Shown here in pieces: positions 1,566 through 8,768 of a DNA stretch of 64,000 nt. A program made the translations under genes and the position numbers. Source of the stretch: Arcticibacter eurypsychrophilus (GTDB lineage: Bacteria > Bacteroidota > Bacteroidia > Sphingobacteriales > Sphingobacteriaceae); NCBI RefSeq assembly GCF_001730525.1, contig NZ_MDFN01000013.1, forward strand, positions 1 through 64,000, written 5' to 3'. Under the pieces are notes generated by a model. The model ran no database searches. It worked only from the letters and a program-made list of their open reading frames with translations, and had not been told where the DNA came from. Within the stretch, counting starts at the first letter, position 1. Every line of letters begins with the position of its first letter.

Positions 1566-2109
1566 CTACTCTTTCCCATGAATTTTAACCCCACGGTGTC
1601 TTAGGTATTTGTAAAGGGTCATTTTAGAAATCAAAAGCTCTTTAGCGATAGCGTCTACTCCTAATGTCCGCTCATTATACAGCGTTTGAGCAAGCATGGC
1701 TGTCCGTTCTGCCTCTTTAGACAAGCCCCTGCTTCGCCCTCCCTTTCTTCCACGAGCTCGGGCTGCTTCCAATCCGGATTTTGTTCTTTCCCTGATCAAA
1801 TCTCTTTCAAATTCAGAAAGCGAAGCAAAAATGTTAAAGATCAATCTGCCCTGAGCGGTGGTAGTATCAATATGATCATTTAAAGATACCAGGCCGACTC
1901 CTTTCTTTTCAAAATCCGAGGCCAATTCTAATAAGTGTTTTAAAGACCTGCCTAGCCGGTCAAGTTTGTAGATGTAAATCACATCCCCCTTTCGCAAGAT
2001 TTGTTGCATCGCCGAAAGTTCATGCCGTTCTGATTTAGTACCCGAAGCCTTTTCCTGGAATATTTGTTCGCAACCCTCTTTGTTCAAAGCGTCGAGCTGC
2101 ATCTCTAAG
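1566..2109 (-). pseudogene. Serine resolvase/invertase, 5' end removed by transposon end
   Basis: The readable 178 residues match a small serine recombinase. The catalytic-domain middle is present (KLDRLGRSLKHLLEL; FNIFASLSEFERDLIRERT), followed by a Gly/Arg hinge and a C-terminal helix-turn-helix (about residues 145-170). The N-terminal block that normally carries the catalytic Ser (YxRVST) is missing. The frame continues upstream only for Leu-Glu before Met-Gln-Leu-Asp-Ala-Leu, exactly as in the family motif NLxxQLDAL, and then runs into the transposon end beginning with TGT at 2110. The gene therefore lost about 17 codons at the insertion point. Without the nucleophile Ser it cannot be active. 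The ATG at 2102 is an internal Met, not a true start. Confidence 0.85.
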
Positions 2110-2160
2110 TGTAATGGTTAAAACGAATTCGTGAATTTAGCCAAAACGAATTCATGAAAA
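2110..2160. repeat. Transposon left end (L)
   Basis: This end begins with TGT at 2110. It contains two copies of AAAACGAATTC (from 2120 and 2143, period 23 bp) separated by GTGAATTTAGCC, then CATGAAAAG. It is the inverted counterpart of the sequences at 8458-8506 and 8719-8768. Outside it lies the cut resolvase gene. Confidence 0.85.
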
Positions 2161-2225
2161 GTTTAATTTCTACATCCTATATAAAGCGGTGCCTTATGCA
2201 ACAGTCCCATCTCTTTTGGAGACAG

Positions 2226-2253
2226 TTTGTGAACTTCGATTAAAGTTCACAAA
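2226..2253. other. Perfect 11-bp inverted repeat inside the left end
   Basis: TTTGTGAACTT (2226-2236) and AAGTTCACAAA (2243-2253) form a perfect stem around a 6-base loop. It lies between the transposon end and the esterase stop codon. It could be a terminator for the esterase transcript, or a recombination/regulatory site. The rest of 2161-2427 shows no gene. Confidence 0.4.
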
Positions 2254-2427
2254 TATGTTATTGTCATTTGTTGAGAATAGTACTTTTTATCCTGATACAA
2301 TCATGCACTTACAGGCCATCTATCTTTTAAAAAGTTGTCTGTAAATCTTGGCTTTTTTTCCTACCGTCTGATACAGAGTAGCATTAATTTAATCATGAGG
2401 TTCGGAGGAGTCAAAATGGTATGTAAC

Positions 2428-3636
2428 TTATTTCTGCAACTCCCGCAATTGAGTTCTGATTTCCCTAGATTCTGGATTCAGTTCGCCTGCTTTCTTATAA
2501 GCCTCGATTGCTTTCTGCTTGTCTCCTACATTGCTATATCCTTCACCCAAAGCAGCAAAAGCTTTGGAAGAAGAAGGATAATTGATTGTATTCATTTTCA
2601 AAAGCTTTAAGCCAAAGCTCACGTTAGCTGAACTTGCTACTAGCCATTCACCCCACTCATTAATATTTGATTCTTCAGGCAATATGGTGTATCCAAATTT
2701 CTCGGATAATAACTTATAGTGTTTCATAAGGTTATCAAAATTATCCTCTTTATAACTTAATGGGGAAAAACCCCACTGTCGATAAATAAATCGAAGCCCG
2801 TCATAGTATGATTTAATAGGGACGGTATTATGGTCCTCCATAGGGTAGTGGATAAACTTGTAATCTAATCCCTGGAGACTGCGCTTTTCAAGCAAAGAAT
2901 CCAGCGTTAGAAATGTGTTATGAAAAGCGGCCTTATTATAACGACCTTCGTCACCATTGCTTAAAAAAAACGTCTTAGATAAGGTGGAACCTGATTTCAA
3001 TGTTTCATCTGCTAATTTAAGAATATAGTCATGATCCCACCAAAGAGCCGGGCTTATTGCAATATATGCGTTAAACATATCAGGATAATTAATCAGACAA
3101 TTAATTGCTGTTGAGCCACCAAAAGAATGTCCTGCAAAAATGCGATATGGCTTGATTTTATAATTGAAATTCACGTATGGTATAAGTTCTTGGCGTATAA
3201 ATCTTAAAAATGACTCATTCCCTCCAGTGTTCTTAAATGCTACGGTATCCAAATTACCTGAAGAGTCAAAGCTCGAGTGAGAGGGTGTAAGGTCACGGTT
3301 TCGGTCTGTGTTTGTAATCCCTACAACTATCATCGGCGGAGCAACTTCTACATCTGCCCTACCGAAGAATTTTGAAAGTTCTACTAGCAGATTATAGTGA
3401 TTCTCGGCATCAAGAACATAAATTACCGGATATGCCAAATTAAGGTTTGCTGAATCCTTAGGTGCGTAAATCATTATCCGGCGGTCTTCTTTTAGTATTT
3501 CTGAATGAAGTGTTACAATATTTCCCTGGTTCGACATAATAGGTTCGACCTTTTGGGCACTCGCTAAAAAAGAAAAAAATAAAGACAGTGTGAAAAGAAA
3601 AAAAATGAAATGCTTTTTTGTTAAAGATGCTTCCAT
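2428..3636 (-). CDS. Exported alpha/beta-hydrolase esterase with C-terminal TPR
   Basis: This protein of 402 residues has an N-terminal signal peptide (hydrophobic core about residues 10-26, ending ASAQ). A putative esterase domain of the Fes/IroE/esterase-D type (PF00756-like) follows, with nucleophile motif GHSFGG (Ser171) and an MEDHNTVP segment that probably supplies the catalytic His. The last about 45 residues look like one tetratricopeptide unit (AFAALGEGYSNVGDKQKAIEAY). Family members hydrolyse esters such as siderophores, S-formylglutathione or antibiotic-like lactones; the substrate here cannot be told from sequence. It is cargo of the transposon, transcribed toward the left end and away from the transposase. 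The presence of an erythromycin-esterase fragment in the same element is suggestive but does not show a macrolide role. Confidence 0.8.
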   Translation of the reverse strand: MEASLTKKHFIFFLFTLSLFFSFLASAQKVEPIMSNQGNIVTLHSEILKEDRRIMIYAPKDSANLNLAYPVIYVLDAENHYNLLVELSKFFGRADVEVAPPMIVVGITNTDRNRDLTPSHSSFDSSGNLDTVAFKNTGGNESFLRFIRQELIPYVNFNYKIKPYRIFAGHSFGGSTAINCLINYPDMFNAYIAISPALWWDHDYILKLADETLKSGSTLSKTFFLSNGDEGRYNKAAFHNTFLTLDSLLEKRSLQGLDYKFIHYPMEDHNTVPIKSYYDGLRFIYRQWGFSPLSYKEDNFDNLMKHYKLLSEKFGYTILPEESNINEWGEWLVASSANVSFGLKLLKMNTINYPSSSKAFAALGEGYSNVGDKQKAIEAYKKAGELNPESREIRTQLRELQK

Positions 3637-3765
3637 GTTGGGTTTAATACGGTGACTGCAAAATAGAAAAAATTTCGACTAACTTAATTTAAATTTTTGC
3701 AAGAGTTAAAGTCTGAGTTATTACGTCTAACCAACCTTTAATTTAAATATAACATCCCACTGGAA

Positions 3766-4371
3766 TTAATCTTCTCTTAGTTTTCTGGTTCTTATATAGC
3801 TTTCAACTGTTAATCGGTTGACGCCTAAAATTCTGCCTATTGTAGACACTCCAACTTTCTTATCCAATAATTCCCTTATGGTGGCTTCCTTACCAGTTAA
3901 TTTTGTTTGTTTAGATAATGATCCTGCAGGACGACCAATCGGCAACCCTTCACTTTTCATCCTTGCCATCGCTTCTTTGGTACGTTGGGATATCAAGTTG
4001 CGTTCTATTTCAGCAGAAAGGGAAAATGCAAAAGCCAGCACTTTTGAAGAAATGTTATTGCCCAATTCATATCCTTCTTTTATAGCATATACCTTGCTTT
4101 CCTTCACCATACAATTATTTAAGATGCTCATTACTTCCATCAAATTTCTTCCTAATCTGGAAAGTTCGCTCACTATCAAAATATCGTTTTTCTTTAGATC
4201 GGTCAAAACCTTGCCAAGCTTACGGTCTTCGGAGCGCTTATTACCACTTACAGTCTCCTCAATCCATTCGTCAACGTGTATCCTTTTACTGGAAGAATAT
4301 TTTAAGATTTCAAAGCGCTGGTTTTCGACTGTTTGTTTGTCTGTTGATACCCGGATATATGCGTAAATCAT
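3766..4371 (-). CDS. Mpi-family serine site-specific recombinase
   Basis: This is a complete 201-residue small serine recombinase. The N-terminus has YIRVST with the catalytic Ser at residue 9. The expected SELSRLGR and LSAEIERNLISQRT blocks follow, then a GRPAGS hinge and a C-terminal helix-turn-helix (about 165-195). The protein most resembles the Bacteroidota 'master DNA invertase Mpi' group, whose founder flips capsule promoters in Bacteroides fragilis. Its place, 120 bases from and divergent to the transposase, fits a transposon-encoded resolvase that resolves cointegrates made by replicative transposition. I saw no pair of obvious inversion sites. The intervening 4372-4491 contains a twice-repeated TACCTTAA (about 4451 and 4469), a possible promoter or res-like region. 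Confidence 0.85.
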   Translation of the reverse strand: MIYAYIRVSTDKQTVENQRFEILKYSSSKRIHVDEWIEETVSGNKRSEDRKLGKVLTDLKKNDILIVSELSRLGRNLMEVMSILNNCMVKESKVYAIKEGYELGNNISSKVLAFAFSLSAEIERNLISQRTKEAMARMKSEGLPIGRPAGSLSKQTKLTGKEATIRELLDKKVGVSTIGRILGVNRLTVESYIRTRKLRED

Positions 4372-4491
4372 AGAAAAAGAGGAAAAGTTAGAGAAAGGGT
4401 GCTTTTTGATATTTAATTATACATCTATTTGGTAAAAATAAGGAATAATTTACTACCTTAAATGTAACGTACCTTAAGGACCCCTTTTTAT

Positions 4492-5196
4492 ATGAATACT
4501 TCTGAGATAGCCAGTCAGGATTTTATTCACTTTCAGGAATATCTGTATGTTAAAGGTATGTATTTGGCTGACCATCTTAAAATTCCTCAAAGCATTATCG
4601 ACACAGGAGCTCAGGCATATCTATCCATGTCCTCCACCGAATGGAAACATATTTTACATCAAGGATATAAATGGTTTGATTATAAGTCCATACCCATAGA
4701 AATCTTAATTAAGTATCAGGTTCCCTCACAGGAAGAGTTAATAGCAAAATTCAAAAAGTCATTATCCACTGAGGCGGCACCCGAGAATAAATTGTATCAA
4801 AATGAGATGCTGGCCATTCAAATCGCTTTAAACAATGCAGATTTATTCATTCCAGAATTTACCGCCAATTCAATTAGAAAGGAAAAGATTGCCAGTTATT
4901 GCAATTCATATGCTGTACTACTTTTACTTCAACAATTCACTCATCTCAAAGTTTATGAACAGTTTAACATATATCTGGCAGTATCAGATTCTAATTTCTC
5001 TTTTCAAACAAGAAGTCTTAATCATTTCTATGCTAAGACTAAGGATATAAAAAAATATGGGCTCTTAAGGAGTCTGCTTCATCAGGGTATTTCAAATAGG
5101 AATGCAGTAAAAATGTTTGAATACCATGAAAAGCTAATAAGTCATTTTACAGGGAAGGGAAAAAGCTTTCGCAAAGAGATATTTGCACAAATGTAA
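4492..5196 (+). CDS. Transposase N-terminal part (probable DNA-binding subunit or frame 1)
   Basis: This 234-residue protein has no catalytic motif. It is assigned from position directly before the DDE-domain gene and from segments such as YKSIPIEILIKYQVPSQEEL, which resemble the N-terminal region of Bacteroidota Mu-type transposases from memory. The stop at 5194-5196 is five bases before the ATG of the next gene, which lies in the -1 frame. A slippery heptamer at 5157-5163 in the correct register could produce a fused transposase of about 685 residues, close to the usual length of such enzymes. It may instead be a separate DNA-binding subunit, or the first half of a gene broken by mutation. 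Confidence 0.6.
   Translation: MNTSEIASQDFIHFQEYLYVKGMYLADHLKIPQSIIDTGAQAYLSMSSTEWKHILHQGYKWFDYKSIPIEILIKYQVPSQEELIAKFKKSLSTEAAPENKLYQNEMLAIQIALNNADLFIPEFTANSIRKEKIASYCNSYAVLLLLQQFTHLKVYEQFNIYLAVSDSNFSFQTRSLNHFYAKTKDIKKYGLLRSLLHQGISNRNAVKMFEYHEKLISHFTGKGKSFRKEIFAQM
5157..5186 (+). other. Candidate programmed -1 frameshift site
   Basis: The heptamer G GGA AAA (5157-5163) is in the zero frame of the upstream gene (GGA at 5158, AAA at 5161). The -1 frame is open from 5130 into the downstream DDE gene. Seven bases after the heptamer, GCAAA (5171-5175) can pair with TTTGC (5182-5186), a weak 5-bp hairpin at usual spacing. A purine-rich AGGGAAGGGA stretch lies at and just before it. Slippage here would join residue 224 of the first frame to 461 codons of the second. 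Confidence 0.5.
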
Positions 5197-5201
5197 ACAC
5201 G

Positions 5202-6548
5202 ATGCTAAGATCCAGGAATGAACCTGAGATTAGTTTAAGTGCCGTTAAGCATATTTTGTTAAAGACCTATAGGAAAAATTTAGATGATATAACCAGAAAT
5301 GGTGAGGCATGGATGAAAAACACCCTTCTTCCTTTTTTAATAAGGGAAGAGCCAGAATATCCCTGTGACCATTGGCAGATTGATGCCACTCGGCTTCAAA
5401 TCTTTTGTAAAGATGAAGCTAAACAGGGCTCTTTCTTATGGATTGCGGTGGTACTTGATGCTCATTCCCGAATGGTAATGGGGTTTGCAATCGGCGAAAA
5501 GGAATGCCCTGACTTATATACCAGGGCACTAAAAATCGCAATTGGCAGAAGTAGGTTGCTTCCAGCAGAAATATTAAGGGACAACTATAAGGGGTATACC
5601 CAGGACAGTGAATTAACGGACTTGATTGATCAGACGGAAAAAATGGGTGTCCGATGGCGCGCTCATAAAGTTGGTAATCCCCGGGATAAAGGTATCGTGG
5701 AACGCTTTTTTGGTGTTTTTAATACGGTCTTCTGCAAGGGAATAATCGGTTATACTGGAGAGGGTATAAAGAGTAGAAGTGTAAATGCACGGCCTAATCC
5801 TGATGATATGAAACTATATCGCAAGTATAAGCTGTTAAAAACCAAAGATCAAATCATCACCATCATTACAGAAGATATACATAAATATAATCAGGGCGGA
5901 ATCAATAAAAACGACATATCCCCAATCGAAAAATTCAAACTAAAGGAGACTAAGAATGCCATATCTATAGGTTCTGATGAATATGCATTGATCTTTTATA
6001 AAAAGAAAATCTTAAAAGTCAACCGATCTACGATTTGTATTCATTTAAATGGGTGTTCTTATTTCTATCAGCTAAGTGAAGTTGAGCATATCCTAAATTA
6101 CAATCGCGTCTGTGTTCAGGTGCATTATGACCCAGCTGACATGACAACTATTCACTTATTTACGGAAAACGACAGTAAGCCCATAACAATGCTAAGCAAA
6201 ATAAAGCCAGTATCACTCGCTCAAATTAATCATGATAAAGACGACGAAGCTAATCTGCACCGGTACTACGCTAAAAATCAATCTTTGATAAAACAACTGA
6301 GGGAAATAATTGAACAGCGTGAAGCTGCTATTGAAGCATTAGATTTACCGGTCTCCGTATTAAATTCGAATGTATCATTAGTGTTTCCCATTCTTAATGA
6401 AGCAGAAATGGACCTGAATGACCATTTACAACTTCCAATGGATGAGGCTTTGAAAAAAGATAAGATTTTCAAAAAGCATCGTTCCCTATACTCTGAATTG
6501 CAGGACTCATTATATAAAAAGAAGGGTTCTGTTAAACGATTACAATAA
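5202..6548 (+). CDS. DDE transposase catalytic part (TniA/TnsB/MuA-like)
   Basis: The 448-residue product contains a retroviral-integrase-type core. Asp61 is in HWQIDATRL, Asp127 in EILRDNYKGY and Glu167 in KGIVERFFG, giving a D-D-E triad with about 40 residues between the last two. A C-terminal beta-barrel-like region (about 255-330) and a charged coiled tail (about 350-448) follow, as in Mu-type transposases. The enzyme would cut and join transposon ends in the nucleus-free cytoplasm. It lies five bases after the preceding gene and overlaps the ATPase gene by one base (TAATG at 6546-6550), so the three are a translationally coupled unit. The ATG at 5202 may be used independently, or the part may be made as a -1 fusion. 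Confidence 0.85.
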   Translation: MLRSRNEPEISLSAVKHILLKTYRKNLDDITRNGEAWMKNTLLPFLIREEPEYPCDHWQIDATRLQIFCKDEAKQGSFLWIAVVLDAHSRMVMGFAIGEKECPDLYTRALKIAIGRSRLLPAEILRDNYKGYTQDSELTDLIDQTEKMGVRWRAHKVGNPRDKGIVERFFGVFNTVFCKGIIGYTGEGIKSRSVNARPNPDDMKLYRKYKLLKTKDQIITIITEDIHKYNQGGINKNDISPIEKFKLKETKNAISIGSDEYALIFYKKKILKVNRSTICIHLNGCSYFYQLSEVEHILNYNRVCVQVHYDPADMTTIHLFTENDSKPITMLSKIKPVSLAQINHDKDDEANLHRYYAKNQSLIKQLREIIEQREAAIEALDLPVSVLNSNVSLVFPILNEAEMDLNDHLQLPMDEALKKDKIFKKHRSLYSELQDSLYKKKGSVKRLQ

Positions 6549-7279
6549 TGGATCTTACAAGTTTTGACCTTTCTTTAATTCGAAAACCACCATCAGACTT
6601 GGTTCTTGAAACCAATGTATTAAGAACCATAACAGAAAATTGTCAGGATGCTTTGGAATACCACCGGATGATTGCTTTTATTGGCGACTCAGGCTATGGA
6701 AAAACTAAATCACTTCAATACTTTGCAGCTAAGAAAAAGAATGTTTACTATTTGGTGGTCGAAAAGAGCATGACTTCAAAGCGGTTCTACGTAGAACTTC
6801 TAAATGTGCTTGGTTTTACAAATTCATTTCGTGGAAGTGATCTAAACAATTTAATAAAAAGTATTAGCTTCCATTTGTGCCATTCCAAACAATCAAATTT
6901 ATTGATTATCGATGAAGCGGGCAAGTTCAATGCCAATCAGCTTTTGTTCTTGCACGAACTCCGTGACAATACAAAAAGCAATACCGGGATAATTCTTTCG
7001 GGTCCACCTTACTTCAATAAAAATATGGATCTCTGGAAGCTTGCAGGAAAGGAAGGGATACCCGAGTTATATAGAAGAATTCAGTCATGGATTCCATTGC
7101 CAGAGCCATCTATGAAAGAGAAAAAAGCCTATTGCTCGGAATTTGGTATATTAAATGATCTGGCTGATGAACTTGCAGATGAGTCAAAGGACTTTGGAAC
7201 GTTAGACAATAAAATTCTTGAGGTTAGAATAGCGGTCATTAAATATTTGAAGGCAACAGAAAAGAAAACCAATAAATAA
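6548..7279 (+). CDS. AAA ATPase transposition helper (TniB/TnsC/MuB-like)
   Basis: This 243-residue AAA+ protein has Walker A GDSGYGKTKS (about residues 46-55) and Walker B LLIIDEAG (about 119-126). A sensor-like LSGPP follows, then an arginine-finger region (ELYRRIQSW). Proteins of this group bind target DNA as ATP-dependent filaments and activate the DDE transposase. The start codon overlaps the transposase stop by one base. The stop lies only about six bases before a degenerate transposon end (7285-7316), which suggests the original element ended right after this gene. No TniQ-like gene is seen. Confidence 0.85.
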   Translation: MDLTSFDLSLIRKPPSDLVLETNVLRTITENCQDALEYHRMIAFIGDSGYGKTKSLQYFAAKKKNVYYLVVEKSMTSKRFYVELLNVLGFTNSFRGSDLNNLIKSISFHLCHSKQSNLLIIDEAGKFNANQLLFLHELRDNTKSNTGIILSGPPYFNKNMDLWKLAGKEGIPELYRRIQSWIPLPEPSMKEKKAYCSEFGILNDLADELADESKDFGTLDNKILEVRIAVIKYLKATEKKTNK

Positions 7280-7284
7280 AAATG

Positions 7285-7316
7285 CTTTTTCATTAATTCG
7301 TTTTAACCTTTACCAA
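7285..7316. repeat. Degenerate single-unit transposon end (R0)
   Basis: The sequence TTTTTCATTAATTCGTTTT followed by AACCTTTACCA matches the outer and inner borders of the other ends but holds only one repeat unit instead of two. It looks as if 23 bp were lost between the two direct repeats. It lies immediately after the ATPase gene in right-end orientation. With one binding site it is probably weak or inactive. Confidence 0.7.
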
Positions 7317-7512
7317 TGTCATTTAATTTTTCCTCAAACTTGCCAATTAGAAGAATACCCATTGGTAACTCATTTATTATAATTTTTAGCTAAAAGTGTT
7401 CGGTTTCATCTAATTATTATTGCGGTATTAAGGAAGGTTTAGATTAAAATTTTTAGGGGAGGCATGAACAAGTTAACAGATGTTAAATTTTCAATCATCA
7501 CATAAACTTTAA

Positions 7513-8214
7513 ATAGATTTGGCCATAGCTAATTCTGAAAAAACGATTATAAATCTTTTAACTTCCATTGAACTAACAGAAGAAAATCCTGAGCTTAAAC
7601 AAATTTATAGGTATTATATCAAAATCCTTTCTCAAAGCGTAAAACTTATGGCTTTACCTAACTGGTATGATCGGTATATTTTTCGTGATCAGTGTATGGC
7701 AGAGAACTGCATGTGGATAGCGGAAAGAAATCCAAATATAAAAGTACTTGTTTGGGCTCATAATGGTCATGTTAGTAAAAGCATTACAGACTCAGACATT
7801 CGTCCTATGGGGAGTTACTTAAAGGAAAAATATTCAAGTGGTTATTATGTATTAGGATTTGGCTTTAATAAAGGAGCTTTTCGTGCTCGGGTTGATAAGG
7901 AGTCAGGAATAGATGTAATGACTGTTCCCGAAGTAAAAAGTAATTTGTCTACTGACTTTATCTTCGGTCAGTGCAAGGATGAGAATTTTTTTATGGATTT
8001 TAAAAGTACAACTGGGAATCAGGTTGTTCAGGACTTTTTAAATCGCAAATTATACTCTCGTTATATTGGAGCAAGTTATAACGCAAAGAAAAGTGAGAAT
8101 GGCAAAGACATCAAGAAAGAACTGATTAATCTATATGATGGAATTGTCTTTTTTAAACAAACAATCGCAGCCTCACCGCAGCTTAAATTATGGCAGCAGA
8201 CGAAGAGTCTATGA
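7513..8214 (+). pseudogene. Erythromycin-esterase-family protein, 3' fragment
   Basis: The frame opens after a TAA at 7510-7512 and gives 231-233 residues with no good start codon (TTG at 7519 at best). It matches the C-terminal half of the erythromycin esterase/succinoglycan biosynthesis family: RDQCMAENCMWI followed by KVLVWAHNGHVS, then a GFGFNKGAFRA strand. Full-length members have about 400-450 residues. The N-terminal half, which contains the catalytic His and Glu in EreA/EreB, is absent, so the fragment should be inactive. It lies between the decayed end R0 and the intact end R1. It was probably captured when transposition used the outer end. No frameshifted N-terminal part is visible in 7317-7512. 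Confidence 0.8.
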
Positions 8215-8457
8215 TTTATTGCTTAAGCTCAAAGCGAGATTATGATTAATAGTCCTTTAACTTACCATTATTTAGGCCAGCTGTAATATCCAATTGCAAG
8301 TTAGTTTAGTATCGTTCATCAAGAAATGGAAATGTATATTTAACATAAAATCAGTTATTGAAGAATTATTACCCAAGCCATCCTTAAGGTTACTAGAAAA
8401 TGTGGATAAACGTTAAAGAAGGACTCGTATATAATACTATATATAAGAAATAGGCTT

Positions 8458-8506
8458 TTCATGAATTCGTTTTGGCCAAATTCATGAATTCGTTTTAACC
8501 CTTACA
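8458..8506. repeat. Transposon right end (R1)
   Basis: TCATGAATTCG occurs twice (from 8459 and 8482, period 23 bp). The first copy is followed by TTTTGGCCAAAT and the second by TTTTAACCCTTACA, ending ACA at 8506. This mirrors the TGT start of the left end. The inner flank (about 8401-8457) resembles the inner flank of the second right end at 8719. Confidence 0.85.
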
Positions 8507-8615
8507 TATAGGGAATTATGCAATTTCCGAAATAGCTAAAAGGCTACAGATGCCCATAGCCACTTGTTATCGATATTTAAGATATGTAAAAGAGAGCAAG
8601 GCAAGTGACGTTTGA
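8507..8615 (+). pseudogene. Serine resolvase C-terminal fragment
   Basis: From 8508 the plus strand reads IGNYAISEIAKRLQMPIA and continues TCYRYLRYVKES to a TGA at 8613-8615. This is the C-terminal helix-turn-helix of a serine resolvase. Its upstream part is cut by the transposon end R1. It is not the missing piece of the resolvase at 1566-2109, which keeps its own different helix-turn-helix. Too short to be functional. Confidence 0.8.
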
Positions 8616-8718
8616 TATAAACTGCAGAGCCGTGATCTTTTCACCAATCGGAAATCTTATATAAAAAGGGTAAACGGTGCAGAAGGAACGTTTTATAATA
8701 CGAAGTAAGAAATAGATC

Positions 8719-8768
8719 TTTCATGAATTCGTTTTGGCCAAATACACGAATTCGTTTTAACCATTATC
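8719..8768. repeat. Second transposon right end (R2)
   Basis: Two CATGAATTCG / CACGAATTCG units 23 bp apart are separated by TTTTGGCCAAATA and followed by TTTTAACCATTATCA. The preceding 60 bp (GGTAAACG...AGAAGGAACG...TAAGAAATAG) align with the inner flank of R1. It is therefore the end of a related but distinct element that presumably carried the resolvase fragment at 8507-8615. Confidence 0.8.

Follow-up and report, generated by a model that had tools for sequence, protein, structure and literature searches.

Resolvase gene fragments flank a Tn5053/Mu-like transposon of Arcticibacter eurypsychrophilus that may prefer serine-resolvase loci

The 64,000-nucleotide stretch analyzed here (the window) opens contig C4 in the 4.69-Mb draft genome of Arcticibacter eurypsychrophilus (G000; contigs of this genome are given below with the letter C). 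It carries a transposon-like element with a transposase gene (tniA), an ATPase gene (tniB), a serine recombinase gene and cargo, bounded by a left end at 2110 and a right end at 8506 (Table 1). Both flanks of this element were found to be 3' parts of serine-resolvase genes, a different gene on each side. Comparison of these and related ends with random points in the same DNA supported, and did not prove, targeting of resolvase loci.

Table 1. The element, its ends and the adjoining resolvase fragments, in window coordinates
Feature	Position	Strand	Evidence
tnpR 3' part (from about codon 15), Tn3-family serine resolvase cut by the left end	1566..2108	-	96.7% amino acid identity to C19 resolvase; flank begins at nucleotide 42
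Left end with terminus ATTACA, carrying two iterons at a spacing of 23 bp, outward to the left	2110..2175	-	End model R1, 69.9 bits (sequence in the model's training set)
Cargo: putative esterase with C-terminal TPR-like part	2428..3636	-	Pfam PF00756, 81 bits
Serine recombinase of the element itself (Mpi type), oriented divergently to tniA	3766..4371	-	Pfam PF00239; 92.5% amino acid identity to pA27BH1 counterpart
tniA (rve/DDE transposase), two frames, 4492-5196 and 5202-6548	4492..6548	+	Pfam rve, 45 bits; frameshift
tniB/MuB-like AAA ATPase	6548..7279	+	Pfam AAA_22, 56 bits; Pfam TniB below cut-off; 82% amino acid identity to pA27BH1 TniB
Decayed single-iteron end in the canonical right-end position directly after tniB	7275..7313	+	End model, 19.3 bits; position as in both plasmid relatives
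Cargo: C-terminal fragment of an erythromycin-esterase-family protein	7519..8214	+	Pfam PF05139, profile positions 188-358 of 358
Outer right end with terminus CTTACA and two iterons, outward to the right	8441..8506	+	End model, 77.3 bits (sequence in training set)
Tail of a second serine resolvase (C45 family): final 35 codons with stop, truncated by the end at 8506	8508..8615	+	90/106 nucleotides identical to intact C45 resolvase
Third right-facing end, downstream of the resolvase tail	8703..8766	+	End model, 72 bits (sequence in training set)

The end motif, allowing up to two mismatches, matched the window six times against 0.24 matches expected. As inverted repeats of each other, the outer ends agree at 90% across about 61 bp, and the left one was 94% identical over 50 bp to the left end of a related element on the Pedobacter plasmid pA27BH1. 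When the left flank was aligned with the intact resolvase gene on C19, the match began at nucleotide 42, with 486 of 541 positions identical, and lacked about the first 14 codons. The C19 resolvase gene stands divergently beside a split Tn3-family transposase gene, and the left resolvase was therefore read as tnpR of a Tn3-family transposon. The alignment of the right flank with the intact resolvase gene on C45 began at nucleotide 477. A first reading of this DNA from its sequence alone (the sequence-only reading) had proposed that the two ends interrupt two different resolvase genes, and both alignments confirmed it. The 5' part of tnpR, sought exactly and at ≥29 of 42 bases, was not found in the 64-kb window, nor was tnpA. 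There was no 5-bp target duplication at the window ends; CTTAG lies outside the left end and TATAG outside the right one.

We then examined whether resolvase sequence is enriched outside such ends in general. Six-frame translations of the flanks of 39 non-redundant ends were scanned with a resolvase profile; the controls were 6000 random points from the same DNA, handled identically. Four of 43 ends had been dropped before the count (an internal repeat on the Emticicia oligotrophica plasmid pEMTOL01, two orthologous ends, and one end with only 56 bp of flank), and weak ends were retained. Because the control DNA was picked around ends and is itself resolvase-rich, the control is conservative; the profile, which draws in part on resolvases at these loci, was used equally on the controls. 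Resolvase sequence was present within 200 bp outside the end in 6 of the 39 cases, compared with 129 of the 6000 random points (P = 2e-4, odds ratio 8.3), and at the junction itself in 5/39 ends compared with 86/6000 points (P = 3e-4). This flank scan supersedes an earlier scan over long chunks, which missed short fragments (4/39, P = 0.006). The excess was also seen in the four close tniA-tniB elements that were found, namely those of the window, pA27BH1, pEMTOL01 and G743, a genome of another genus in the family. Four of their seven ends lie at a resolvase (P = 8e-6), or three of seven (P = 3e-4) when the decayed end at 7313 is put in place of that at 8506; with the window left aside, the count was 2/5 (P = 0.005). 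An end lies inside a resolvase gene in three of these four elements, those of the window, pEMTOL01 and G743.

The six positive ends are the two of the window (nucleotides 42 and 477) and those of C66, G743, pEMTOL01 and G688. The resolvase flank on C66 begins at nucleotide 62, and the outer end of G743 lies at about nucleotide 216 of a C45-family resolvase. The left end of pEMTOL01 lies at nucleotide 60 of a resolvase frame that retains its first 20 codons. In G688 the end lies 134 bp upstream of a resolvase frame that is intact, and an inverted repeat with 11-bp arms stands between the two. Four of the five in-gene junctions (window left, window 8506, G743 and pEMTOL01) fall exactly at the TTACA or CTACA terminus. 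The right end on pA27BH1, which is not one of the six, is about 145 bp upstream of two paired genes, the first encoding a CHC2/Toprim protein and the second a resolvase.

Several results weigh against a preference for resolvases. Since the idea came from the two window ends, they are not independent evidence; when they were set aside, the 200-bp count fell to 4/37 (P = 0.008), and without C66 as well to 3/36 (P = 0.04). The corresponding junction counts were 3/37 (P = 0.02) and 2/36 (P = 0.10). The C66 case is doubtful: this truncated resolvase fragment, with an identical border, also occurs without an end in G020, another genome of the window's genus. Five of the six resolvase cases lie inside the coding region, and not between res subsites as in Tn5053/Tn402. 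The right end of pEMTOL01 sits in a gene read as IS3-like, and the left end on the Pedobacter plasmid adjoins an older end. Only four close tniA-tniB elements were available, and TniQ gave no match among eight window proteins (Pfam) or eight plasmid proteins tested, the remaining cargo of the plasmid elements being judged by annotation only. The sequence-only reading had suggested a survey of flanks with 5-bp duplications as added support. The survey gave the enrichment described above, and a 5-bp duplication was shown for none of the resolvase insertions; the ends of pEMTOL01 have no matching 5-bp pair, and the flanks on pA27BH1 agree only with a one-base shift. That reading had also taken copies in unrelated genes as evidence against targeting. 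No resolvase lay within 200 bp of 33 of the 39 ends, so the idea that all copies insert at resolvases was rejected, and any preference is not exclusive and is at most a preference.

The plasmid elements are close relatives: over a 448-amino-acid part of tniA, pA27BH1 shared 71.5% and pEMTOL01 55% amino acid identity with the window. Both have the canonical layout of left end, cargo, recombinase, tniA, tniB and right end, the last directly after tniB. In the window the end at that position is decayed, and the end at 8506 may therefore not be the original partner of that at 2110, as the sequence-only reading had paired them. A possible explanation, which we hold to be somewhat doubtful, is that two separate elements overlap here, one with the end at 2110 and the other with that at 8506; this would fit either reading of target choice. 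The layout on both plasmids and the decayed end after tniB favor it. Against it, G743 has the arrangement of the window: its 6.5-kb contig starts inside tniA and continues with tniB, a decayed end (recognized by eye), cargo, a strong outer end and a resolvase. Because G743 shares this right-side layout, 2110-8506 may be a working unit. Solo ends on C43 and C49 matched the subterminal 127-174 bp of the 8506 end at 83-84%. Positions 8506-8735 of the window matched C45 4001-4226 at 77%, and the succession of a resolvase tail and the end at 8766 repeats that on C45, where an end follows the intact resolvase. With this third end after the resolvase tail, the insertions in the window are stacked.

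The gene content was compared with that of the relatives. Window TniA was 69-72% identical to pA27BH1 TniA in its main part and 56% in its N-terminal part. Its frame breaks near 5155, where the local sequence is G GGA AAA, which we take to resemble a -1 slippery site. A plain frameshift or sequencing error is likelier than slippage, because tniA is one continuous frame on both plasmids. The Mpi-type assignment of the recombinase rests on its pA27BH1 homologue, which matched NCBIfam NF009949 above the cut-off. TnsA gave no match among the proteins scanned from the window and the plasmid relatives, other cargo being judged by annotation, and no phage structural family was found among the window proteins in the Pfam scan. 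The best solved relative of TniA was a TnsB (7svw, E 2e-12), which presumably belongs to a type V-K CRISPR-associated transposon (CAST). The TnsB group of type V-K CAST is assigned to the Tn5053 clade in PMC8649781, where clade elements without TnsA and with a resolvase are predicted to transpose replicatively via a cointegrate.

We propose that this is a rare Tn5053/Mu-like transposon of Bacteroidota that transposes replicatively and prefers serine-resolvase loci, and that the window copy moved between two resolvase genes within one molecule; we judge this account about evenly balanced between right and wrong. The element, with its iteron ends, DDE transposase, MuB-like ATPase, Mpi-type recombinase and cargo, would insert preferentially in or beside resolvase loci, often near the gene start, where res sites usually lie, and also deeper in the coding region. 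TniB or TniA would recognize the resolvase or res. The window copy would originally have entered tnpR of a Tn3-family transposon and then, by intramolecular transposition, the second, C45-family resolvase gene. An intramolecular replicative move yields a deletion or inversion product in which one end keeps its old flank, the other has a new one, and there is no duplication pair. A deletion of this kind would account for the unlike flanks of the window, and the missing tnpA and 5' part of tnpR are as it would leave them. If so, one element would have picked a resolvase locus twice. The rearrangement after insertion that had been claimed from the sequence agrees with the differing flanks and the unmatched CTTAG and TATAG; the intramolecular step itself is a possible course.

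Insertion without targeting is the next explanation to be weighed, and it is possible, if slightly more doubtful than a mixture of two elements. Insertions would be tolerated anywhere, and resolvase flanks would be by-products of stacking in mobile-element islands, which are resolvase-rich. Ends are indeed stacked in the window and on C49, where three same-orientation ends stand in a row at 541-2288 (L074) with short genes between them. A C45-type resolvase lies about 90 bp inside the end on C45, and likewise in G020 (contig C143) and before 8766 in the window. The 33 ends away from resolvases and the weak excess without the window and C66 (P = 0.04) also agree with nesting. Against nesting, controls taken from the same resolvase-rich DNA still differed at the odds ratio given above, and the resolvases hit are of differing origin (Tn3 tnpR, a plasmid resolvase and the C45 family). 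That resolvases are mere cargo of the element was rejected, as C45-family genes also occur with no end at E < 0.1 in the surrounding 1.5 kb; two such genes are in G050, and one, frameshifted, is in G020 (contig C20).

Returning to targeting, a bolder form of it is unlikely in our view: that a Bacteroidota lineage with TniA and TniB only targets resolvase loci without TniQ, reading the resolvase gene or the resolvase-res complex directly, destroying the resolvase gene and leaving many solo ends. Improbable is an origin of the junctions by homologous or illegitimate recombination between element copies, with resolvase fragments joined secondarily, since four of the five in-gene junctions fall exactly at the terminus, as transposition makes them, even though the left and right flanks differ both in the window and on pEMTOL01 and the 5' border of the C66 fragment is identical in G020 without an end.

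A model was made of the res-like quasi-palindrome upstream of C45-family resolvases; it was trained on sites near ends and is not main evidence. The 66-bp quasi-palindrome, noted in this genome on C48, C45, C31, C66, C3 and C93, was also present without a resolvase. Six sites of this genome had E below 1e-11, and one on C1 was weaker (E 0.007); an end lay within 2.3 kb of five of the six. An end was found within 4 kb of one of three strong sites in G020, and of one of nine in G035 and G050 together. No res site belonging to the element itself was identified.

The distribution of ends was surveyed with the end model R1, built from 12 sequences of this genome, in genomes that are mostly drafts. 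At E up to 1e-3, R1 found ends in 8 of the 301 family-sample genomes and in 2 of 6 genomes of the genus; at E up to 1e-4, in 4 of 145 in the genus of G050 and 2 of 149 in that of G176, these four counts overlapping. This genome had 16 R1 matches in the family-sample search. Apart from C4, its contigs with listed matches each have a single end orientation, mostly as solo ends, and the subterminal sequences fall into several groups. Solo ends as integron-like gene cassettes were rejected, because the end on C3 is on the strand opposite both neighboring genes. A gene resembling DUF6266 proteins, a label that we assume, recurs near ends and palindromes (L112, L113, L115, L107 and L076). On pEMTOL01 a second Emticicia-type end at 68210-68276 (L171 18210-18276) and a second recombinase of the element type stand about 9 kb apart, and the flank of this end has no resolvase. 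Searches by peptide patterns confirmed no relatives in genome contigs, and none were confirmed in viral contigs. The plasmid search with TniB gave no elements beyond pA27BH1 and pEMTOL01. Relatives were found in 2 of 395 genomes of the phylum sample and 1 of 395 of the class sample, both counts including this genome; the other genome holds a 31% relative. A distant relative in G406 (L168; about 30% amino acid identity) has tniA, tniB and a serine recombinase all in one direction.

If the preference is true, Bacteroidota would have a transposon aimed at other mobile elements. To our knowledge, how a resolvase is sensed by res hunters is an open question, and a related element with fewer proteins would narrow it to TniA and TniB. 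In PMC7765201, Tn5053/Tn402 elements are described as spreading mercury resistance and class 1 integrons, and as res site hunters. According to the same paper they have the arrangement tniABQ-res-tniR and 25-bp inverted repeats, insert in a preferred orientation and make 5-bp duplications, which are missing from some chromosomal copies. Most of the targets that they prefer fall between res boxes I and II (PMC12217951).

Like these transposons, the window element has tniA- and tniB-like genes, its own serine recombinase and inverted ends. Further likenesses are nesting in a Tn3-family carrier, the lack of duplication in some copies and what appears to be a preference for resolvase loci (PMC7765201, PMC12217951). 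The likeness in tniA and tniB rests on rve and AAA/TniB-like matches and the TnsB relative, and not on direct alignment with Tn5053 TniA. Unlike Tn5053/Tn402, the window element has no tniQ among the proteins scanned, its Mpi-type recombinase is divergent from tniA, and Pfam TniB was matched only below the cut-off; resolvase cases are mostly intragenic, and no fixed orientation was seen. The outer ends are longer than the 25-bp repeats, a comparison of length and not of family repeat sequence. Only the end in G688, upstream of a resolvase frame with an inverted repeat between, has a position like that of a res hunter's insertion. We did not assign the element to the Tn5053/Tn402 family, because tniQ was not found, its recombinase differs in type and five of the six resolvase cases are inside the gene; it works like that family if the preference is real. 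Bacteroidota Mu-like transposable phages also have an rve transposase, and their genome loci also have a MuB-like ATPase beside it (24-31% amino acid identity), but the transposase there mostly has XRE-repressor-like genes (by eye), and not a resolvase, beside it. No such Bacteroidota element was recognized among the papers listed from the open-licence literature searched. The elements on pA27BH1 and pEMTOL01, annotated in the records examined as single genes and not as a transposon, differ from the window copy in their continuous tniA and in the right end directly after tniB; they share its recombinase, tniA, tniB and ends and are its direct relatives.

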